Below, in pieces: positions 13,395 to 31,719 of a stretch of DNA of 32,226 nucleotides (position 1 is the first letter of the stretch; every line of letters starts with the position of its first letter). A program made the translations under genes and the position numbers. This stretch comes from Actinomycetes bacterium (GTDB lineage: Bacteria > Actinomycetota > Thermoleophilia > RBG-16-64-13). The stretch lies in the NCBI GenBank assembly GCA_021802965.1, contig JAJZQZ010000007.1, positions 3,224 to 35,449 on the forward strand, given 5' to 3'. The notes under the pieces are model-generated. The model was not told where the DNA came from, did not search any database, and saw only the letters and a program-made list of their open reading frames with translations.

Positions 13395-15224
13395 GTGAGG
13401 CACGCCAGGAAACTCGAGTCGTTGGCGGCCATCGTCTTTGCCGCCGCGGCGGCGGTCCTGCTGTTCGCGGGACCCGCTGTCGCCGAGATCGACGTGGCCG
13501 GCTGGCATTTCACCGACCTGTCGACCGCGCAGATCCCGATCACGTTCAGGCTCGCGTTCGACGACCAGCGCATCGCGTGGACGAAGGGGGACGGTGGCCA
13601 GACCGACGTGTACGTCAAGGATATTGCCACGGGCGCCAGCACTCGGATCACCGACACTCCCGAGTCGGAGGACTCGGTCGCTCTGGATGGGGATCGCCTC
13701 GCATGGATCGCTCGTCCCACTTTGGACTTCGCGGTGCCCGGGGAGGTGAGGCTGCACGACCTCAGCACGCACGAGACACGCGTGCTCGGCTCGGGGCGGG
13801 TCGCGTCGGAGACCGGCCTTCAGATACTCGGCGACCACGTCGCCTGGGCGATGTACGAGCAAGGCGCAGGAGGGCTGGGAGGCGCGCGACTGACCCTCTT
13901 CGTGTACACGATCAGCACCGGCGCCACGGCGAAGGTCACTGAGGAGCTCTCCAACGAAGGGGGAGGTTCCGGCGGGGGCAGGTCCTTCGATCTGGGCAGC
14001 GATCACCTCGCGTTCGTGAAGGAGGCTCCCGCCGGCCAGGACGCCGAGGTGTGGCTGTACGACCTTGCCTCCGGCTCCTTTACCAACCTCGGGAGGTCGG
14101 CGGCCGATTCGCGTCACGTGAGCCTCGAAGGCGACGTAGTCACCTGGGCAGCGCCGGGCGAGCCGGCACATGGGGCTTCCTACGGAAGGTACAGCGTCTT
14201 CACGCATCGCATCTCCACCGGCCAGACTCGGGTGGTCGCCACGAGGGAAGGCCCCGAGCCCTATCCAAAGACCGACGGACGCTTCATCGTCTGGGACACC
14301 TACGACGGCGACCTGAGGAAGATCCAGGCCTACGACCTCCAGACGGAGCAAGTCATCGACGTCAGCCACAACCTCTTTCTCAACTTCACCCCCGAGGTCT
14401 CCGACGGCCTGGTGGTGTGGGAGCGTGGGGGAGAGCTCGACTCGGAGATCATGGCCCACGACCTCTTGAGCGGGCAGACCACGCAGCTCTCCACCAACCG
14501 GACCTGGGTCGACCAGGCCTCGCAGGTACACGGACGGACCGTGGTCTGGTGGAAGCACTGGTTCACGAACCAGCCAGGGCCGGAACCGCCGGATGAGTTC
14601 GCGGTCGCCCGAGCCCCGGTATCTTTCGCCGATCCCTTCGGCGACGTCGACGGCCATCACCGGTATCGCACCGCCATCATCGGCGCCGACGAGCAGGGCA
14701 TCGCCGGCGGGTACATCGTCGGAGGCGACCTTCTGTTCCGTCCGGAAGCGCCGCTTCTGCGTGCCCAGTTCGCCAAGATGGTCGTCGAAGCCTTCGACGT
14801 GCCCGTGACCGAAGACCTGGCCAACGCCTTCTCGGACCTCGGACCCGACGACCCCGGGAGCCTCTATCCCCACGAGTACGTGGCAGCCTTGAGCAGCCGG
14901 GGGATCATCAAGGGCGTGGGCGGCGGCAGGTTCGACCCGTACGTTCCCCTGACCCGGGCCCAGGCAGCGACGATCCTGGTGCGGGCGCTCGACCAGCTCT
15001 ACCCGGGGTTGCTCACCGACGCCCAAGGTCAGGCGCCCGGCGCGTACTATTGGGAGCCGCCCCACCTGGAGAATCTGCGGCGGGCCTACGGCAACGACCT
15101 GCTGGCCGGCACGGTCGATTGGATGCAACGCTGGGATGCGCGCGTCGTCTGCAGCCGGGGCGAGGCCGTGCAGCTCATATGGAATGCGCTTTCGCTGCTC
15201 CATGAGGAGGGGAGGCGGTCGTAA
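13395..15224 (+). CDS. Secreted seven-bladed propeller protein with C-terminal SLH repeats
   Basis: The 609-residue protein starts at a GTG with AGGAGG seven bases upstream. A signal peptide (hydrophobic core at about 12-27, ending AVAEID) is followed by seven similar repeats of about 50 residues, each with a Gly/Asp-x-x-Val-Ala-Trp strand (RIAWTKG, RLAWIAR, HVAWAMY, HLAFVKE, VVTWAAP, FIVWDTY, LVVWERG) and an aromatic strand ending in TG or similar. This is a TolB/PD40-type propeller. From about residue 410 there are SLH repeats: FADPFGDVDGHH, FSDLGPDDPGSLYPHEYV, then a final unit with WDARVVCSRGEAVQL. SLH domains hold proteins to wall-linked polymers, so it should be displayed on the cell surface. 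The propeller probably binds or senses a ligand; no enzyme motif was seen. Confidence 0.85.
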   Translation: MRHARKLESLAAIVFAAAAAVLLFAGPAVAEIDVAGWHFTDLSTAQIPITFRLAFDDQRIAWTKGDGGQTDVYVKDIATGASTRITDTPESEDSVALDGDRLAWIARPTLDFAVPGEVRLHDLSTHETRVLGSGRVASETGLQILGDHVAWAMYEQGAGGLGGARLTLFVYTISTGATAKVTEELSNEGGGSGGGRSFDLGSDHLAFVKEAPAGQDAEVWLYDLASGSFTNLGRSAADSRHVSLEGDVVTWAAPGEPAHGASYGRYSVFTHRISTGQTRVVATREGPEPYPKTDGRFIVWDTYDGDLRKIQAYDLQTEQVIDVSHNLFLNFTPEVSDGLVVWERGGELDSEIMAHDLLSGQTTQLSTNRTWVDQASQVHGRTVVWWKHWFTNQPGPEPPDEFAVARAPVSFADPFGDVDGHHRYRTAIIGADEQGIAGGYIVGGDLLFRPEAPLLRAQFAKMVVEAFDVPVTEDLANAFSDLGPDDPGSLYPHEYVAALSSRGIIKGVGGGRFDPYVPLTRAQAATILVRALDQLYPGLLTDAQGQAPGAYYWEPPHLENLRRAYGNDLLAGTVDWMQRWDARVVCSRGEAVQLIWNALSLLHEEGRRS

Positions 15225-18695: not shown

Positions 18696-18766
18696 GATGG
18701 GGGAAGGTCTTGACTGCCGAGCGGAAGATCCTCCACGGTGAGGCCGTCGGGGATGGGAGGTGCGTC

Positions 18767-20269
18767 ATGGGCTGGTCGGGTCGACGGGATACGAACGGCT
18801 GCCACCCGGCGAAGATCCTGGTGGCGATCTCCGTGGTCGGGCTGCTCTTGGTGCTCGCCGGGGCGGGGCCGGCTCTAGCCGCTGCCGACGACGACATACC
18901 CGGTCAGGACCTTGCCCTGGGGCAGCAGGTCACCGGGTCGGTCGACGTGGGGTCGGACAAGAACGATGTCTACGGTCTTGCCCTCACGTCAGGGGAGGAG
19001 GTGCACGTCCGGGCCAAGTCGACGGGGACCAGTCTCGCGAACGCCGACATGCACTGGATGGTGCTGGGCGCCACGAGCGTCGCCGCCCCCGAGGACTACG
19101 AGCTGATCAGCGCCCGCCTGTTTCAGAGCCAGTTCCTCTACAGTGAGCCCGAGTTCGACTACGTCCCTCCGCACACCGGCCGGTACTTCTCCTGGTTCGA
19201 AGCGCTGGAGGGTAGTCTTTCGTATGAGCTCGAGGTGACTCGCACTTCCCGAGCCCCCATCACCACCGCCGACACCGACGACATCCCGGGTGTGCCGATC
19301 GGCGAGGAAGCCTTGCTCAGGGTCGTCGACACCTTCGCCGACCACGACGACCTGTACTCGGTCAAGCTGTTCGCCGGTGAGCCTGTGACCATCCGCCTCG
19401 AGCCGTTGGGCGCCGACATGTTCGGGTCCGCCTGGCTGGGCCTGCTCACACCGGACTCGACCTCCATCTCCAGCTGGGGCACCTACGACCGGGCGGTACC
19501 GCTGGATTCGAACGCCCATAACGCTGTGAACTTCACCTCGGACACCTTGGCCGACGAGACCGCTGTCCTGCAGTTCACGCCGTCAGAGACCGGGGTGTAT
19601 CCGGTTTGGGTGGAATCGGGGAACATCGGCAGCAACCTGCCCTATCGCCTGAGCATCACAGGTCACGCCGAACGACCCGGAGGAGGCCCTCCGCCGCCGA
19701 CCGGGTTCCCCGACGTCACTCCGTCTCACCCGTACTATGAGGCCATCACCGGCATCGCCGACGAGGGCATCATCAACGGCTACACCAACGGCGAATTCGG
19801 TCCTGAAGACCCCGTGAAGCGGGCGCAGTTCGCCAAGATGATCGACGGGACCATGGGGGTCCAGGTCTCTGAAGCGATGACCTCGCCGTTCACGGATCTG
19901 GGGCCGGACGACCAGGGCGACCTGTATCCCCACGAGTACGTGGCGGCTGCGGCGGCAGCGGGGATCACGACCGGGGTCACGCCCACGACCTTCGCCCCCT
20001 ACAACGACATCTCGCGGGCGCAGGTCGTGACCATGATAGTGCGCGCCGCGGAGGGACTCGCCCCCGGGGTGCTGGACCAGCCGCCGGCCGGCTATGCGGG
20101 GACGGTGCCCTCCTTCAGCGCGATCCACTCCCCCAACATGCGGATCGCGGAGTACAACGGACTTCTCGAGGGACTGACGGGCTTCGGCGGATCGTGGGAC
20201 CCATGGGCCAAGTCTAGTCGCGGAGAGTGTGCTCAGATGCTTTGGAACCTGATGCTGCGTATGCGCTAG
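18767..20269 (+). CDS. Secreted double-PPC protein with C-terminal SLH repeats
   Basis: The 500-residue protein has a signal peptide (ILVAISVVGLLLVLAG, ending GPALA) and then two pre-peptidase-like domains, each opening with an Asp-Asp-Ile-Pro-Gly motif (DDDIPGQDLALG at about 45 and TDDIPGVPIGEE at about 175) and containing the DVYGLALTSGEE or DLYSVKLFAGEP core. A proline linker at about 310 leads to three SLH units: FPDVTPSHPYYEAI, FTDLGPDDQGDLYPHEYV, and a last unit with AEYNGLLEGLTGFG, WDPW and SSRGECAQML. It should be wall-anchored through SLH and display PPC beta-sandwiches. ATG 18767 is chosen because GGGAGGTG precedes it; an in-frame TTG at 18710 would precede the signal with unneeded polar sequence. 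Its stop shares CTAG with the convergent gene. Confidence 0.85.
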   Translation: MGWSGRRDTNGCHPAKILVAISVVGLLLVLAGAGPALAAADDDIPGQDLALGQQVTGSVDVGSDKNDVYGLALTSGEEVHVRAKSTGTSLANADMHWMVLGATSVAAPEDYELISARLFQSQFLYSEPEFDYVPPHTGRYFSWFEALEGSLSYELEVTRTSRAPITTADTDDIPGVPIGEEALLRVVDTFADHDDLYSVKLFAGEPVTIRLEPLGADMFGSAWLGLLTPDSTSISSWGTYDRAVPLDSNAHNAVNFTSDTLADETAVLQFTPSETGVYPVWVESGNIGSNLPYRLSITGHAERPGGGPPPPTGFPDVTPSHPYYEAITGIADEGIINGYTNGEFGPEDPVKRAQFAKMIDGTMGVQVSEAMTSPFTDLGPDDQGDLYPHEYVAAAAAAGITTGVTPTTFAPYNDISRAQVVTMIVRAAEGLAPGVLDQPPAGYAGTVPSFSAIHSPNMRIAEYNGLLEGLTGFGGSWDPWAKSSRGECAQMLWNLMLRMR

Positions 20270-21843
20270 GAGTGATGTCCGTTGCCGTTGTCGCGCGTTG
20301 CCTCATGGTCTTCGACCTCGAGTGCCTTCGCCTTCAATCTTCCGCGGATCTCCTCGATGCGCGAGCGTATCCCGTCGGCGTCGAAGCCGCCGAGGGTGCC
20401 GGCGGTCTCGTTCTGGACGACGCCCTCGCGTGGGCTCGGAGGGCTCCACGCGGGCCACTGCAGCTCCCCGGGTCCCGCCCGCAGACCGTCGCGCATGAGC
20501 TTATCGAGACTGGCCTCGGCGAACGACTGGAAGTCGTCGTCCAGGCTTTGGCGCTCGCTTCGAGGCACCGGCTCGACTTGACCGGCCTCCACGGCTACGT
20601 CGTCCGCGTCCCCGGCCGAAGGGCCGGCCTTCGCCGTCGACATCGACACCCGGGGGTGCGTCACCGTCTGCATCATCCTGGCCATGATCATGGCGACCTC
20701 GCCCCGCGAGGCGCTGGCTAGGGGGTCCCAGTCGGTGCGGAACTTGACCAGGCCGCTGAGGAAGCCGTTGTATTCCGCGATGCGCAGGAAAGGGAAGCGA
20801 GGGTCTTCGGTCACGGGGAGGATGCCGCGGTACTCTGGAGGCGCCTCGGAGAGCGCGGAAGGACCCCACAGGGCCAGTCCCCGGACGACCGTCGTGATCG
20901 CGTCCGCCCGGGTGATCAGTGCCAGGTGCCTACGCTCTTTGGGGGGTGGGCATGGTTCCTCCTGGTCCGCATCGTCCGTGCAGAGAGACGAATCCCAGTC
21001 GGGGGGGAGCAGCGAATCGGGGTCGTCCATGCCCAGGTCCGCGAGCAGGTCGTACGCCGCGGATCGAAGGTCGGGCTGGATGGAGGCCACGAAGACCTTG
21101 GAGAAGTCGAGGCGGGATATCGGAGTATCCGGCAAGAACTCCCAGCGGTCGCCGCTCCGGTAGCCGGTCATCGCGCGGGCCACGCTCACGGCCCGGACCG
21201 CGTCGTGATAGGGGTGCCAGACAGGCACGTCGCTGAAGTCCCCGCGCCCCCGAGGCACGCGCGGGGTGTCCTTGGCCCGCGGCGGGGCGTCGATGCTGAG
21301 CTTGTAGTGGCACGGTGTGCGAAGACGGCACTCGAGCTTGACTCCGACGTAGTGGACGCCCGTCGACGAGGCCGAGAACGACAACCACGAGTGGCCGTTG
21401 GGGCCGCACAGAGCGTGCGCCGATGCGTGATGGAGGTCCTCGGGCCCGAAGAGCCAGATGCTCAGCCCGGGGGATCCTTCGGCGGTCTGGACCGCGATGG
21501 TCACGTCGTCACCCTCTTCCGCGTAGAAGAAGAAGGCACGAGGCGCGTTCGGCTCGGCGATGCGAAGATCGAAGGGATCTCCGTCACCCGCGCTCCTCCA
21601 GGGGACGGTGACAGGGGTGGCGGACTGTCGCCACGCATCGGACTCGAAGGGGTCTGGGAGCGCCTCGTCGCACGTCTTCCTTGGACGCGATAGGACCAGG
21701 TAGAAGACGCAGCAGAGCACGACGGTCGCCGCCAGTGGCCAGGCCCACTCGGAGCCACGCACGAGAGAGGCCGCAAAAAGACACCCAGTGATCACGATGA
21801 GCGCCGGCAACCACGGTCGGAGATCTACCCACCTAGCAGGCAT
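20266..21843 (-). CDS. Membrane-hairpin PPC/SLH-like protein with long tail
   Basis: The 525-residue protein has two closely spaced helices (about 11-28 and 33-51) joined by RGSE. The N-terminus (RWVDLR) and the segment after helix 2 (SRPRK) are positive. A PPC-like sandwich (RAFFFYAEEGDDVTIAV, TGVHYVGVKLE) and degenerate SLH units follow: FSDVPVWHPYHDAV, a middle unit, and one with AEYNGFLSGLVKF, WDPL and ASRGEVAMIM. A charged tail of about 125 residues ends in a predicted helix (RSRIEEIRGRLKAKALEVED). The charge pattern predicts both the N-terminus and the PPC/SLH part in the cytoplasm. It is a paralogue of the protein at 30577-31719, which lacks the long tail. ATG 21843 follows a GGGGGA site; GTG 21867 is the alternative. 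It is divergent from the fusion gene at 21911. Confidence 0.75.
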   Translation of the reverse strand: MPARWVDLRPWLPALIVITGCLFAASLVRGSEWAWPLAATVVLCCVFYLVLSRPRKTCDEALPDPFESDAWRQSATPVTVPWRSAGDGDPFDLRIAEPNAPRAFFFYAEEGDDVTIAVQTAEGSPGLSIWLFGPEDLHHASAHALCGPNGHSWLSFSASSTGVHYVGVKLECRLRTPCHYKLSIDAPPRAKDTPRVPRGRGDFSDVPVWHPYHDAVRAVSVARAMTGYRSGDRWEFLPDTPISRLDFSKVFVASIQPDLRSAAYDLLADLGMDDPDSLLPPDWDSSLCTDDADQEEPCPPPKERRHLALITRADAITTVVRGLALWGPSALSEAPPEYRGILPVTEDPRFPFLRIAEYNGFLSGLVKFRTDWDPLASASRGEVAMIMARMMQTVTHPRVSMSTAKAGPSAGDADDVAVEAGQVEPVPRSERQSLDDDFQSFAEASLDKLMRDGLRAGPGELQWPAWSPPSPREGVVQNETAGTLGGFDADGIRSRIEEIRGRLKAKALEVEDHEATRDNGNGHHS

Positions 21844-21910
21844 CGCGTCCCCCACGATGACTTTCACTATCGTAGCATTCCTTCGGTTTCCGTCGTGATA
21901 CCTTTAGCCA

Positions 21911-23344
21911 GTGCAGCCTCTCGCCGTCGTAACCGCTCTGTTTCAAGCGCTCAGCGAGCGGGCGATCGCGCACTGCATCTTCAAGAGCGTGGAGCACTTG
22001 GAGGACTCGCTTCTCGGGTTGACCGACATCGATCTGCTGGTCGATGAGCGGCGGCAGCGGGATTGTCGCGAGGCCCTCATTTCGGCCGGCTTTCGATCGG
22101 CGAAGTCGCAGCCTTGGGCTCGCTACCCCGGCATCGAGGACTGGGTGAGTCTCGATCCAGCCACCGCCAGGATCGTGCACGTGCACCTTCACTTCCGGTT
22201 GCACACCGGCCTCAAGTATGTGAAGGATCTGCATCTGCCCTGGGAACGAGATGTCCTGTCCTCGGCGAAGCCACATCCGGTTCATGGCGTCCCGGTGATC
22301 GACCCTTCCCTGGAGTTGGTCCTGCTGGTGGTGCGTTCCGCAGCCGCCTTGCCGCCCCGAACCGCGGTCCGAGGGGCCCAGGACCTGGGCGTCGGCGAAG
22401 GTACCCAGCGCGAGCTCGTATATCTCCGGGAGAAGGCCGTGCCCGCGCAGGTCGGGCGTTACGCGCATCTGCTGAAGGACCCGACGCTGGCGCGACACGT
22501 GGCCGACATGGCGTTGGGCTCCGGCCCCCCGGGCGGTGAAGGCCTGCTCCTCATCAAGGCCCGCTTGTCTGAAGAACCGCGACTGCACCGTCTGCGAACA
22601 TCGAGAGCGAAGTCTCAACAACTGCGGCGCAAGGCGATCCGCCGGGGGGTCAGAAGCGGCATCGGCCGGGCCCTGCACGTGCCCAGCGGCAAGCGCCTCG
22701 GCCCAGGGGGGCTGGTCGTAGGCTTGGTCGGTTCTGATGGATCTGGCAAGTCGACCGTGATCGCGGAGGTCCACCGGCGCCTGGCGGCCAAGGTCGACGT
22801 GCAGCGCTTCTATCTCGGCAGGGCGAGGGGCCCGGCGCCGGCCTTCGACCGCGCGCTCTCCGGCGCGACCATGCGCCTCGGCCGGGGCACATCGGCTGCG
22901 CGCGCGGCGGCAGGGGTGGGCTATGCCCTGCAGCGTTGGCTGATACTCAGGAGGTCGGCCGCCGCGGCGGCCGGAGGTTCCCTGGTGCTGCTCGACAGAT
23001 ACCCGCAACGCCACCTGTTCCGTCTTTTCGACGGCCCGATGATCGTCGCTGAAGGCGCCCACTGGCTGGTCAGATGGTGCGCTCGAGTGGAGCGCTCCCT
23101 GTTCGCCTCGATGGAGAGGCAGCCGGGCGCCCTTATCATGCGGTTGCACGTTCGGCCGGAGGTGGCCCTCGCGCGAAAACCGGGCGAGGGCGCGGCCATC
23201 AGAGCGAAGGCCGGGCTGCTCGATCAGCTGCGCTTCGGACACGGCGTGACGGTGGTAGAGGTCGACGGAGAGCAACCGCTCGACAGTGTGGTCAGAACGG
23301 TCATGAACGAGATATGGGGACGCCTTCCGCAGGCTCCCAGCTGA
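21911..23344 (+). CDS. Nucleotidyltransferase-fold and P-loop kinase fusion
   Basis: The 477-residue protein has two parts. Residues 1 to about 200 resemble the uncharacterised nucleotidyltransferase family often found in glycan loci: IFKSVEHLED, then LTDIDLLVDE with the Asp-x-Asp metal pair, then VHVHLHF. Residues from about 265 resemble thymidylate kinase: P-loop GLVGSDGSGKST at about 270-281, LLDRYPQR with the Asp-Arg pair at about 361, and a lid-like Arg/Lys-rich segment (ARKPGEGAAIRAK) near 420. It probably transfers a nucleotide or phosphate to a sugar or glycan precursor in the cytoplasm, but no substrate is known. GTG 21911 is the only sensible start. It lies beside the minus-strand glycan-export operon and converges on the Kre9-like gene, with 9 bases between stops. 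Confidence 0.75.
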   Translation: MQPLAVVTALFQALSERAIAHCIFKSVEHLEDSLLGLTDIDLLVDERRQRDCREALISAGFRSAKSQPWARYPGIEDWVSLDPATARIVHVHLHFRLHTGLKYVKDLHLPWERDVLSSAKPHPVHGVPVIDPSLELVLLVVRSAAALPPRTAVRGAQDLGVGEGTQRELVYLREKAVPAQVGRYAHLLKDPTLARHVADMALGSGPPGGEGLLLIKARLSEEPRLHRLRTSRAKSQQLRRKAIRRGVRSGIGRALHVPSGKRLGPGGLVVGLVGSDGSGKSTVIAEVHRRLAAKVDVQRFYLGRARGPAPAFDRALSGATMRLGRGTSAARAAAGVGYALQRWLILRRSAAAAAGGSLVLLDRYPQRHLFRLFDGPMIVAEGAHWLVRWCARVERSLFASMERQPGALIMRLHVRPEVALARKPGEGAAIRAKAGLLDQLRFGHGVTVVEVDGEQPLDSVVRTVMNEIWGRLPQAPS

Positions 23345-27279: not shown

Positions 27280-28331
27280 CGCTGTGTCCCTTCGATTCGG
27301 GCCGTCGCCTGCGTTTGTCGCTCGACCATGTCGGCGCATAGACCGGCGAAGGCCCGCGCGTGCGCCTCCAGCGAGTAGGAGTCTTCGACCCGCCGTCGCC
27401 CGGCCGCGCCCATCCGGAGCCGAGTCTGGGGTGCACGGGCCAGAGACTCCAGGGCTGCGGCCATCGCCGCGGCGTGACGGGGGGGCGCCAGCAGACCCTC
27501 CTCCTCGTGGGTCACGACGTCGGCCGCGTAGTCGCAGTCGGCGGCCACGACAGGGATGCCCCGGGCCATGGCTGCCAGGAGGTCCGTCGGGAAACTGCCG
27601 GCGACCGCCGAGCAGACATAGAGATCGGCGTGGTCGAAGAGCAAAGGTGTTTGCTCGGGGTCGTATGCCGTCAGTCGGACGATCTCGGTCAGGCCAAGGT
27701 CATGGATGGCGAACGTCACGCGGTTGCGGTCCGGTCCGTGTCCCACAATGTCGAGCCGCACCGAGGACCCACCCTCGACAAGGATCCCGATGGCCATCAC
27801 GAGGTATTCGAGACCCCTCCACCACCTAAGCGGGCCGACGGTGAGGATACGCAGTGGCCCAGTCTCGGAGGGCGGCCGTATGGGCCGGCCCGCGGGCGGC
27901 ATGCCGGGAGGGACGACGCGGGTCTGCTCGATCGGCAGGCCCGCCGATGCAAGCTCCCGTGCCATCGACTCCGAGGGGCACACGACGACGGCTGCTCGTC
28001 GCAAGAGGGCGGACGCTGTGGCCAGATCCAGAGGCTCCGGTGTGCCGTCTAGGTTAGTGCTGGGGTAGCGCCCCGAGTACGCGACAAGCACGGGAAGGCT
28101 CAGGTCGAGCAGCCGAGGCTCTGACAGAGCAAGGGGGGGGTCGGTCAAGTAGAGGAGGTCCCAGCGTGGTTTCGAGAAGAGCCGCGGGCCGAGCCATCGC
28201 CGGGGAAGTCGTTCGGTGATGGCGACGTCTATCCCCTCGTCTTGCAGGCGTGACCGCAGTAGGGACGGCCGTGCCGCGAAGGGATCCGAGGGTCCGGCCA
28301 TCAGCACGCGGACTCGGTCTTGCCCGGTCAT
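27276..28331 (-). CDS. GT4-like protein lacking the E-x7-E glutamates
   Basis: The 351-residue protein has GT-B family 4 layout: an acceptor domain of about 160 residues, then LRILTVGPLRWWRGLEYL and LDIVGHGPDRN in the donor domain. Where family 4 has Glu-Gly-Phe-Pro-x4-Glu, this protein reads AGSFPTDLLAAM, so Gly and Ala replace the two glutamates. The protein may use another residue, transfer a special donor, or be a non-catalytic subunit. The ATG overlaps the wzt stop as ATGA, and its own stop overlaps the next glycosyltransferase start as GTGA. The coding pattern is intact, so it is not an obvious pseudogene. Confidence 0.8.
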   Translation of the reverse strand: MTGQDRVRVLMAGPSDPFAARPSLLRSRLQDEGIDVAITERLPRRWLGPRLFSKPRWDLLYLTDPPLALSEPRLLDLSLPVLVAYSGRYPSTNLDGTPEPLDLATASALLRRAAVVVCPSESMARELASAGLPIEQTRVVPPGMPPAGRPIRPPSETGPLRILTVGPLRWWRGLEYLVMAIGILVEGGSSVRLDIVGHGPDRNRVTFAIHDLGLTEIVRLTAYDPEQTPLLFDHADLYVCSAVAGSFPTDLLAAMARGIPVVAADCDYAADVVTHEEEGLLAPPRHAAAMAAALESLARAPQTRLRMGAAGRRRVEDSYSLEAHARAFAGLCADMVERQTQATARIEGTQR

Positions 28332-29611
28332 GGGGCAGAGCTTCCGTCTGACTGTCTCCAGCTGCCCGTGAGCAGCACGTTGCCGTCATTGGTGCGGCGC
28401 TTCCGGTATCGCTGAGGGGCGTTTATGTTCGTCACGTCTACGGTCATGACACGCTCGTACGAGGCGAGGTTGTGCCACAGACGTCCCTTTGCCACCAGGC
28501 TGACCCGGTAAGTCCCAGGGACGAGGGGCAGTCCATCCGAAGACCACAGGAGCTCGAACCGATCACCCTCGGCTGGGCTCAGAACCAGATCCTGGTCCAC
28601 CGACGCCGAGGTGCCCACGATGGCGCCGTCGCTCGCCTGGATGCGCATGAGGAACGAGACGGCTCCCACGTCTTTCTGGCAATGCCAGCGGGTCCTGATC
28701 GCCACCGGCGCGGCGAACGGCAGCGAGTTGCCGCCGACACCGTCCTCTCGCAGTAATTCGATGCTCTCCAATCGTACCGCCCAGGCTTGGTCCGCCTGCT
28801 TGAGCTGCGCTTCACCGGTGACGCTGTCCAGATACTGAGCCACGACGCGGTCGGTCGGCCCGTACTCGATGAGGCGTCCGTGGTCGAGGAAGACGCAGCG
28901 CTGGGTGATCCGGTTGACCGCCCCCATGTCGTGGCTGACGAACAGGACCGTGCGCCCGCTGGCGGCGACCTCGCTCATGCGCCCCAAGCACTTGGCCTGA
29001 AAGGCGGCGTCGCCGACGGCGAGCACCTCGTCCACCAGGAGGATCTCGGGGTTGAGGAAGGCGGCGACCGCGAAGGCGAGGCGAAGGTACATGCCGCTGG
29101 AATAGTGCTTGACGGGGGTGTCGATGAAGGCGGAAACCTCAGCGAAGTCCACGATCTCGTCGAAGACCCGCTCGATCTCGCTCTTGCGCATGCCCAGGAC
29201 CGCTCCGTTCAAGAAGACGTTCTCACGGCCCGTGAGCTCCGGGTGGAAGCCTGTGCCGACCTCCAGCAGGGACCCTACACGCCCCCGCACCACAGCGCGG
29301 CCTTCGGTCGGGTCGGTGATGCGAGAGAGCACTTTGAGGAGCGTGCTCTTGCCCCCGCCGTTCCGCCCGACGATCCCGACCACGTCGCCCTTGTTCACAT
29401 CGAAAGTGACATCGCGCAGGGCCCAGATCGTGTTGTCGACTTTCTCCCGCTCGGCGCGCGTGATGCGCTCCTTGGCCCGGCGGAGCGAAGTGCGAGTGCC
29501 CGAGGTCAAGCTCTCTCTGAGGGTGCGATAGCGGGCCCGCAGTTCGCCGATCTCGTATTGCTTCGAGATGCCCGTGCAGACGATGACCGGTCTGGAGCTG
29601 GCGGTTGACAT
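28328..29611 (-). CDS. wzt: Glycan ABC exporter ATPase with carbohydrate-binding C-terminus (Wzt type)
   Basis: The 427-residue protein has an N-terminal ABC ATPase with a long lead-in characteristic of O-antigen/teichoic-acid exporters. It has Walker A GRNGGGKST (82-90), signature YSSGMYLRLAF, Walker B ILLVDEVLAVGD and the switch His in FVSHD. After about residue 265 comes a beta-sandwich Wzt-C domain (VAIRTRWHC, FELLWSSDGLPLVPGTYRVSL) of the kind that reads the finished glycan end. It pairs with the permease encoded 3 bases upstream (29615-30580) to flip lipid-linked polysaccharide across the membrane. Its stop overlaps the next gene by ATGA. Confidence 0.92.
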   Translation of the reverse strand: MSTASSRPVIVCTGISKQYEIGELRARYRTLRESLTSGTRTSLRRAKERITRAEREKVDNTIWALRDVTFDVNKGDVVGIVGRNGGGKSTLLKVLSRITDPTEGRAVVRGRVGSLLEVGTGFHPELTGRENVFLNGAVLGMRKSEIERVFDEIVDFAEVSAFIDTPVKHYSSGMYLRLAFAVAAFLNPEILLVDEVLAVGDAAFQAKCLGRMSEVAASGRTVLFVSHDMGAVNRITQRCVFLDHGRLIEYGPTDRVVAQYLDSVTGEAQLKQADQAWAVRLESIELLREDGVGGNSLPFAAPVAIRTRWHCQKDVGAVSFLMRIQASDGAIVGTSASVDQDLVLSPAEGDRFELLWSSDGLPLVPGTYRVSLVAKGRLWHNLASYERVMTVDVTNINAPQRYRKRRTNDGNVLLTGSWRQSDGSSAP

Positions 29612-29614
29612 CGG

Positions 29615-30580
29615 TCAGACCAGGTCCGCGAACCGCCGCTCGAGGCGGCGGAAGTAAAAAAGGCCGCCGACCAGTATCGCGAGGCAGGCGAACACCGACA
29701 CCGAGGTCACTGGTCCGGGGTGCGGAAAGTCCGGACCTCCCAGGAGCGCCCAACGGAAGCCGTTGACCACTCCGACCATGGGGTTGAGTGCCCAGACGAG
29801 CTGCCAGGGTCCCTCGGGCACCTTGTTGCTGGTGTATATGATGGGCGTGGCGAAAAGCCAAAGCTGCACTAGGAAGGGCACGGTGTAGCGCACGTCGCGG
29901 TACTCGACGTTCAAGGCCGCGAGCCAAAGACCCACCCCGACGGCGGTCAGGAAGGCCAGTACCACGAAAAGCGGCAACCAGATCACGTGTATCGTGGGCA
30001 GATTGGCCTGACCCCGCGTGTAGTAGAACACCTGCATGACCACAAGGACGGCGAAGGCCAGTACGAAGTCGACGAGACCGGCCATGACCGTCCCCAGCGG
30101 GATGGCGAGGCGCGGGAAGTACACCTTCTTCACCAGCTGCTGGCTTGCGACCAGGCTGTTCGACGCTTGGGTGATCCCTGTGGCAAAAAGGGTCCAGGGG
30201 ACCAGGGCGGCGTAGGAGACCAGCGGGTAGGGAAGGCGCAACCCCTGGCTCATCTTGCCCAACCGACCGAAGAAGATGCTGAAGACCACCATGGTGAAAA
30301 AGGGCTGCATGATCGCCCAGCTGGCCCCGAACACCGTCTGCTTATAGCGCACCTTGACGTCACGCCAGGTGAGGAAGTAGACCAGCTCGCGGTACTCCCA
30401 CAGCTCCCCCAGGCGGAGAGGGACCCATCCCTTCGCGGGCTGGATGACGATCTCGACGGGCTCGGGGGGTGCAACAGCTCGGACGTCCGCGTCGTCGGCG
30501 TCGAGGCGGAGGGCTGCCGCGGCCACCGCGTCGGCAGCGGCCGCTTTGGCGGCTTTCCGACTCTTCCAGAAAGGCGTCAC
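29615..30580 (-). CDS. wzm: Glycan ABC exporter permease (Wzm type)
   Basis: The 321-residue ABC-2 permease has a cytoplasmic N-terminus rich in Ala and Asp (to about residue 60), an amphipathic connector (LGELWEYRELVYFLTWRDVK, a hallmark of the family), and about six membrane helices. Conserved family segments include YKQTVFGASWAIMQP, VKKVYFPR and ALNPMVGVVNGFRWALLG. It forms the channel for lipid-linked glycan with Wzt. GTG 30580 is chosen because it overlaps the preceding stop as GTGA; a longer frame to 30712 lies within that gene. The N-terminal Ala/Asp extension of about 45 residues is longer than in typical Wzm proteins. Confidence 0.92.
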   Translation of the reverse strand: MTPFWKSRKAAKAAAADAVAAAALRLDADDADVRAVAPPEPVEIVIQPAKGWVPLRLGELWEYRELVYFLTWRDVKVRYKQTVFGASWAIMQPFFTMVVFSIFFGRLGKMSQGLRLPYPLVSYAALVPWTLFATGITQASNSLVASQQLVKKVYFPRLAIPLGTVMAGLVDFVLAFAVLVVMQVFYYTRGQANLPTIHVIWLPLFVVLAFLTAVGVGLWLAALNVEYRDVRYTVPFLVQLWLFATPIIYTSNKVPEGPWQLVWALNPMVGVVNGFRWALLGGPDFPHPGPVTSVSVFACLAILVGGLFYFRRLERRFADLV

Positions 30581-31719
30581 ATCCTGCCCGGCTCCGGCCG
30601 GGTCTGTGCAACGCCGGCGACCGTGACGGAGTGTTTCGTCGTCAACAATTCGGTCATGTTCGAGAGGATCTGGGCGGCCTCGCCTCTGCTGACCGGGTGC
30701 CCCGGGTCCCAATCCGATCGGAATCCGATGATGCCTCGGAGGAGGCCGTTGTACTCGGCGCTATGCAAGACCCGCGAGATATGGGGGTCGGCTGCGGCGA
30801 CCGTTGCCCTGTAGTCGATGGGGACGGGAGTGAGCACGTGGCCCCGCCGCTTCTCGAGGGTCTTGACGGCCGTGGTGACCACATCCGCGCGCGTGGCGTC
30901 GCCCCCGGCCAGAGCCCCGGTCGGGACGGAGAACGCCGGCGATCCCGCAGGCGAGCGGGCGACGATGGCCGATAGCGCCTTGTCGAGCTCCAGGTGGCTC
31001 AGCGATGCGTCGGGCCGGAAGGTCCAGCCGCCGGCTGTGGTGGTCGCGCGCAGGGCCCCGAGTGCCACCATATGCCTGATGGCTTCCCGGTACGGGTGCC
31101 AGGTGGCGACGTCGTCCACCTCGCCGGTGAGCTGGTATTTGCTCGGCGGCGCCTCGCCTGTCTGTCGTCCTTCGAGCGTCAACCGGAATCTTTGCTCGAC
31201 GAGACCTGTTGCGGGGAGCAACCCGATGCCGAGGTAGTAGATGCCGGCGGCGGGAGTGGTGAGCGTAAGAGAGAGGCGGCCGGGCGCTTCGCGGTGCGCT
31301 TCTCGCAAGGATCTTTCGCCGTCCGGAGCAAAGATCCTCACGCAGATGCCGGGGCGTTCGGTGGGTGTCTCGACGGTCACCCGCACGGATGCACCCTGCT
31401 CCGCGCAGAAGTAGTACGCGGCCGGGCCCGATCCGCGACGGATGGTCAGATCGGCGTCGCCAGGTGTGCTCGAGCTGTGCCAGGGAATGCTGATGGGAGT
31501 GGCTGTTTCCCGCCAGTGGGGAGACGTGAAGGGGTCGCCCTGCTTCCGCGAGCGGCGCCGACCGCGCAGCTTGATGGCGCCCCACGATGAGAGGCATACG
31601 GCTGTCGCGAGCGCGAACGGCCAGGAGCGGCCGGGGGTGCGCGTGATCGTCACCGCGAAAAGTGATATCGCAACGAGTGCGGCTGCCGGCAGTGCCGCCT
31701 GGATGAATACCCGCTTCAT
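30577..31719 (-). CDS. Membrane-hairpin PPC/SLH-like protein, first gene of the glycan operon
   Basis: The 380-residue protein has MKR, two helices (about 5-26 and 33-51), then RGRRRSRK. A PPC-like sandwich (AAYYFCAEQGASVRVTV, AAGIYYLGIGLL) and degenerate SLH units follow: VATWHPYREAI, a middle unit, and one with AEYNGLLRGIIGF, WDPG and VSRGEAAQIL. The strongly positive segment after helix 2 predicts that the PPC/SLH part stays in the cytoplasm, unlike ordinary SLH proteins. The stop overlaps wzm by four bases (GTGA), so it is probably made with the exporter. It is a shorter paralogue of the protein at 20266-21843. GGAGGCG precedes the ATG at 31719. The role is unknown; a glycan-binding or exporter-associated adaptor is inferred. 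Confidence 0.78.
   Translation of the reverse strand: MKRVFIQAALPAAALVAISLFAVTITRTPGRSWPFALATAVCLSSWGAIKLRGRRRSRKQGDPFTSPHWRETATPISIPWHSSSTPGDADLTIRRGSGPAAYYFCAEQGASVRVTVETPTERPGICVRIFAPDGERSLREAHREAPGRLSLTLTTPAAGIYYLGIGLLPATGLVEQRFRLTLEGRQTGEAPPSKYQLTGEVDDVATWHPYREAIRHMVALGALRATTTAGGWTFRPDASLSHLELDKALSAIVARSPAGSPAFSVPTGALAGGDATRADVVTTAVKTLEKRRGHVLTPVPIDYRATVAAADPHISRVLHSAEYNGLLRGIIGFRSDWDPGHPVSRGEAAQILSNMTELLTTKHSVTVAGVAQTRPEPGRM

Follow-up and report, generated by a model that had tools for sequence, protein, structure and literature searches.

Genes and Domain Architecture

The window (the whole stretch of DNA analyzed, 32,226 nt) comes from an Actinomycetes bacterium (Thermoleophilia; RBG-16-64-13) and corresponds to positions 3,224-35,449 of the forward strand of contig JAJZQZ010000007.1 (GCA_021802965.1). 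The source genome comprises 3.24 Mb in 263 contigs and is 78% complete, the window being located on contig C100. Comparisons were made with 18 genomes of the family (17 relatives plus the source genome) and with 299 genomes of the class.

Two genes on the minus strand encode the proteins under study, T (20266..21843) and Q (30577..31719; 380 aa). Read from its ATG (21843), T is a genuine frame of 525 aa, or of 533 aa if an alternative GTG at 21867 is taken as the start, and the GC3 of the coding region is 0.84. Both proteins consist of two adjacent transmembrane (TM) helices, a linker motif, a PPC-type sandwich and a degenerate SLH trimer, and T carries in addition a charged tail of about 125 residues which is not found in Q. 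T is a single gene located outside the wzm operon and, as originally predicted, is divergent from a fusion between a nucleotidyltransferase (PF14907-like, with a sub-threshold match to this family) and a P-loop kinase (21911..23344, plus strand). At its other end T converges, with a 4-bp overlap, with the gene of an ordinary secreted PPC-SLH protein (18710..20269, plus strand), the closest SLH relative of T in its own genome after Q. Downstream of Q are wzm (29615..30580, minus strand), an ABC-2 permease with a GTG start at 30580, and wzt (28328..29611, minus strand), an ATPase that itself carries a carbohydrate-binding domain, Wzt_C. The TGA stop of Q overlaps the wzm start (GTGA) and, judging from this arrangement, Q is translationally coupled to wzm. 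Two further SLH proteins in the window are exported, one combining a propeller-like protein with SLH (13395-15224) and the PPC-SLH protein at 18710-20269. SLH proteins are plentiful in the family, the source genome showing 78 SLH repeat matches, that is, dozens of repeats.

The alignment of T and Q extends from end to end with 32% identity and includes the hairpin and the linker DPFxSxxWRxxATPxxxPW, confirming the earlier observation that T repeats the layout of the wzm-coupled protein; the two are genuine full-length paralogs. Based on hydropathy, charges and structural models, the first TM helix of T spans residues 10-28 (21760..21816, minus strand), with R4 and R9 on its N-terminal side, and the second residues 33-51 (21691..21747, minus strand), followed by SRPRK. 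The hairpin of Q (TM helices at residues 6-25 and 32-49; 31573..31704, minus strand) is followed by the strongly basic KLRGRRRSRK. The remainder of T, also on the minus strand, comprises a PPC-like beta-sandwich at about residues 74-187 (21283..21624), assigned by model and Foldseek, an SLH region at residues 203-397 (20653..21237), assigned by alignment, model and Foldseek, and the charged tail at residues 400-525 (20266..20646), delimited by sequence and model. In the AlphaFold2 models both proteins have two paired helices (residues 9-29 and 31-52 in T, 6-27 and 33-58 in Q), together with a sandwich of eight strands and a bundle formed by the SLH region. An ITGC motif in the first TM helix of T suggested a lipoprotein, a reading that was rejected because Q has no such motif and the helix is followed by another TM helix.

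T has no Pfam match even at E<=1, the Pfam SLH family (PF00395) matches neither T nor Q at E<=1, and Q shows a sub-threshold PPC match (E 0.0099); hence the domains are named here from comparisons of profiles and folds. In Foldseek searches the model of T matched a solved PPC domain (5sv5) with a TMt of 0.81, placing it in the PPC fold as far as the model allows, and the ligand-bound SpaA-SLH structure (6cwh) with a TMt of 0.62. A profile of T and its relatives matched 3pyw and 4aq1 in the PDB, and a search of the source genome gave 22 matches besides T itself, with E-values down to 6e-34. By sequence relationship and modeled fold T is thus homologous to the SLH trimer despite falling below the Pfam cut-off.

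Relatives and Distribution

SLH regions resembling that of T were detected in 15 of the 18 family genomes vs none of 43 other class genomes sampled. The hairpin form is much rarer: an N-terminal profile of T and Q found no such protein in the 17 family relatives and nothing convincing in the 299 class genomes, and a hairpin-PPC profile scan of GTDB contigs yielded no relative. A match in G267 (E 1.3e-5) was dismissed since the sequence contains 3 internal stops. Within the family the N-terminal profile found only a signal-peptide form in genome G004 and a leaderless form in genome G005. The former (L056 6228-7364, contig G004:C130) is a secreted PPC-SLH protein with an integrase and phage-like genes nearby; no other signal-peptide form has a PPC domain that the profile of T and Q recognizes. 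The latter, which belongs to another genus (L024/L055, G005:C1 at about 3599600-3601000), is the sole tailed PPC-SLH relative and sits between glgE and treS/maltokinase in an alpha-glucan operon, these enzyme names being read from the sequence itself. The gene has no clean stop before treS, perhaps due to an assembly frameshift, and its limits are therefore uncertain. Neither a signal peptide nor a TM segment was found in any frame, and a signal peptide hidden by a frameshift was discarded because the three upstream frames contain no hydrophobic stretch (maximum mean KD 0.71).

A Derived SLH Clade With One Retained Groove Triad

An analysis of the SLH columns, with 23 canonical rows for comparison, unites T, Q and the G005 protein in one clade (support 98/94), which persists when the degenerate columns of the second repeat (SLH2) are removed (96/90). 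Omission of any one member leaves the other two grouped (87/87 to 99/98); this lessens the concern that long-branch attraction produced the clade, although the branches remain long. In all three proteins the first half of SLH2 is degenerate, scrambled or deleted, and in the T model the corresponding residues (271-294) have a pLDDT below 50. The sequences therefore describe a derived SLH clade that has lost the first half of SLH2.

In SpaA each sugar groove draws on all three repeats, one supplying Arg43, the following one Gly29 and the remaining one Trp13 (PMC6081394), and this scheme was transferred onto the SLH alignment. All three proteins retain the full triad of groove 3 (Y212/R312/G364 in T numbering) and have lost groove 2. 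Groove 1 is doubtful in T, where it may still be usable, and has gone from Q and from the G005 protein; none of these proteins has three full repeats with complete Trp13/Gly29/Arg43 grooves. The decayed positions read, in the order T/Q/G005, G/A/A at G227, R/H/V at R244, W/-/- at the SLH2 aromatic and E/-/A at the SLH2 Gly, whereas among the 23 canonical proteins the Arg, Gly and SLH1/SLH2 aromatic positions are conserved with hardly an exception. This pattern is the one expected from selection for a single binding site, with a triad that is possibly in part structural, given that the TRAE Arg also contributes to folding (PMC6081394).

The Tail Helix Is a Shared Module

The charged tail had been predicted to end in a helix and was suggested as a partner-binding site. 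The model places a helix at residues 489-518 (pLDDT 91-93), and profile searches defined a docking-helix motif, GTLGGFDADGIRSRIEEIRGRLKAKALEVED (residues 482-512; 20308..20400, minus strand), with the consensus xRIExxRxRLKxKA. An HMM built from the tails of T and its G005 relative found a YtxH-like acidic membrane protein (E 8e-11 in the source genome), and the reverse search with an HMM made from the YtxH-like protein alone recovered both T (E 1.5e-5) and the G005 tail (E 1.3e-4); T scored 27.3 bits vs a maximum of 10.6 among 40,000 shuffles. In this acidic protein, present in 17/18 family genomes, a long acidic linker connects a glycine-zipper membrane helix with the C-terminal helix MRxRIExTRxRLKAKAFDAMM. 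The same helix is located at the C-termini of REC-DUF4388 response regulators in genomes G003 and G005, adjoining RelA-type and metallo-beta-lactamase genes, and in YtxH proteins of 86-102 residues from another family. The module's second acidic segment (EIDxTIExxLxEE) is missing from T, which ends in HEATRDNGNGHHS. DUF3618 and DUF1409 were rejected as identities of the tail, their E-values being merely 0.013-0.13. The tail helix is hence conserved in the YtxH-like proteins, the REC-DUF4388 regulators and the G005 relative, and as a common module it lends support to a partner-binding function. It exposes an uncharacterized interaction module, present in three families of the class.

Several members of this group were recorded. 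The YtxH-like protein occurs in three class families (49/299 genomes). One uncharacterized acidic member, encoded at G000:C108:122-2248 (L092) and with homologs L087, L088 and L183, carries the RIEETRxR helix motif twice. Genes neighboring the YtxH-like protein, as read from sequence, encode a RarA/MgsA-like ATPase, a YhaM-like exonuclease and accA/accD/fabF. REC-DUF4388 regulators with the C-terminal helix module are found at L085 721-1686 and L151 6432-7397.

These data bear on the view that T and Q arose by duplication of a secreted PPC-SLH gene, for instance the neighbor at 18710, and have degenerated to the point of having no present function. Their rarity, their fast evolution and the absence of a Pfam score for T would fit such a history; nevertheless, the frames are open, the GC content by codon position is normal, several features persist (hairpin, linker motif, tail helix and the triad of one groove), and Q is coupled to wzm, making decay a very improbable explanation.

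Membrane Side of the PPC/SLH Part

SLH domains are textbook extracellular anchors. In T and Q, an even number of TM helices means that both termini lie on one side of the membrane, and the distribution of Lys and Arg over N-terminus, loop and the stretch after the second helix (3/1/3 in T, 3/2/7 in Q) predicts, by the positive-inside rule, that the C-terminal part is inside; the prediction is clear for Q and weak for T alone, whose net charge after the second helix is 0. The tail points in the same direction: the helix also ends response regulators, which are cytoplasmic, so that it works in the cytoplasm. Weak additional evidence comes from the Cys content, 1.1 per 100 aa in the soluble part of T vs 0.35 in the exported SLH proteins of its own genome. 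Taken together, hairpin and tail most likely place the SLH/PPC part inside the cell, a point missed in the original prediction, and we regard a cytoplasmic orientation of this part in both proteins as highly probable.

The opposite arrangement, an ordinary surface-anchoring protein with an N-out/C-out hairpin whose SLH part binds the wall outside, would agree with the export signals carried by most SLH proteins of the source genome and with the signal peptide of the nearest PPC-SLH protein in G004. It is at odds with the positive-inside charges (clearest in Q), with a tail helix common to cytoplasmic response regulators and YtxH tails, with a leaderless G005 relative lying among glucan enzymes and, weakly, with the Cys content, and we consider it improbable. 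Among the 5.39 million papers covered by a literature search, none was listed as using the phrases "cytoplasmic SLH" or "intracellular SLH".

Glycan Context and Proposed Role

CsaB is the enzyme that makes the SLH ligand. A CsaB-type pyruvyltransferase (PF04230) is encoded in the source genome beside a MurJ-like flippase, and CsaB is present in 11/18 family genomes. Its presence follows SLH number in these 18 genomes, with 2-26 SLH matches where it is found vs 0-8 where it is not. Published data suggest that pyruvylation acts on a lipid-linked disaccharide (PMC6030368), and a report on O-antigen export describes recognition of the modified chain end by Wzt via its carbohydrate-binding domain (PMC9445017). 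Because the Wzt of this cluster already contains a Wzt_C domain, Q would add to it rather than replace it, and a second glycan reader is not required. The dedicated role near glycan genes that had been proposed for the paralogs is plausible in view of the coupling of Q to wzm and the tailed relative among alpha-glucan genes, but conserved synteny with glycan genes was not found, since the hairpin form has no ortholog in the 17 family relatives; the association with wzm is thus a single case. The further idea that the two paralogs act on separate glycans or at separate steps is speculative.

The preferred interpretation is that of a wall-anchor module repurposed to face inward, with a glycan role and a docking helix; taken as a whole, we judge it evenly balanced between right and wrong. 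An ancestral secreted PPC-SLH wall-anchoring protein would have been turned around, giving rise to T and Q, in which the two-helix hairpin would keep the PPC sandwich and the degenerate SLH trimer at the membrane on its cytoplasmic side. Of the three sugar grooves of the SLH part, two would be lost or almost lost and one kept; this groove, perhaps together with the PPC sandwich, might hold an anionic (e.g., pyruvylated) lipid-linked glycan by the export or assembly machinery or, alternatively, mark the finished end of such a glycan. Q would act at the Wzm/Wzt transporter, while T would work separately, with its C-terminal helix docked to a cytoplasmic partner common to YtxH-type membrane proteins and REC-DUF4388 regulators.

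A tentative alternative is that T and Q are cytoplasmic scaffolds devoid of glycan binding, the SLH-PPC part being a remnant fold used for protein contacts and the tail recruiting a partner to the membrane. The long branches, the two grooves that are lost or doubtful, a tail that is clearly a shared module and relatives that adjoin quite different enzymes (GlgE/TreS vs Wzm/Wzt) are all consistent with this possibility. Against it stands the triad of one groove, retained by all three divergent proteins although the equivalent positions of the other two grooves decay. T and Q are probably single-groove proteins that either handle glycans or serve as scaffolds.

Returning to the inward-facing glycan role, a more specific and speculative version is that the SLH module serves as a reader at the cytoplasmic face, the kept groove checking or holding a pyruvylated lipid-linked polymer prior to export, with Q coupling it to Wzm/Wzt and the docking helix of T linking it to a lineage-specific network of membrane proteins and regulators. 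If this were true, the ligand of an inward SLH module would be recognizable before export, offering a handle on the licensing of SCWP-type polymers for export. An anchor module that seems to face inward and a tail that is a shared docking helix make the finding more interesting than first stated.

Comparison With Known Systems

The carbohydrate-binding domain of Wzt (PF14524) would be a functional analog, the proposed role being that of a cytoplasmic beta-sandwich reading a glycan terminus beside Wzm; no homology to T or Q appeared in any search. With the PPC domain (PF04151; 5sv5) T shares the eight-strand sandwich in its model, and Q the weak Pfam match, but in T the domain is preceded by a TM hairpin rather than by a signal peptide. 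YtxH-like membrane proteins (PF12732) and REC-DUF4388 regulators have the tail helix xRIExxRxRLKxKA in common with T but contain neither PPC nor SLH domains, and T in turn is without the second acidic segment of their module. Compared with the SLH trimer (PF00395; SpaA 6CWH, Sap 3PYW), T differs in lying below Pfam detection, in the loss of the first half of SLH2, in two grooves lost or doubtful, and in its predicted cytoplasmic side without a signal peptide, whereas the modeled fold, the three TRAE-type Arg positions and the homology to canonical SLH proteins of its own genome relate it to this family.
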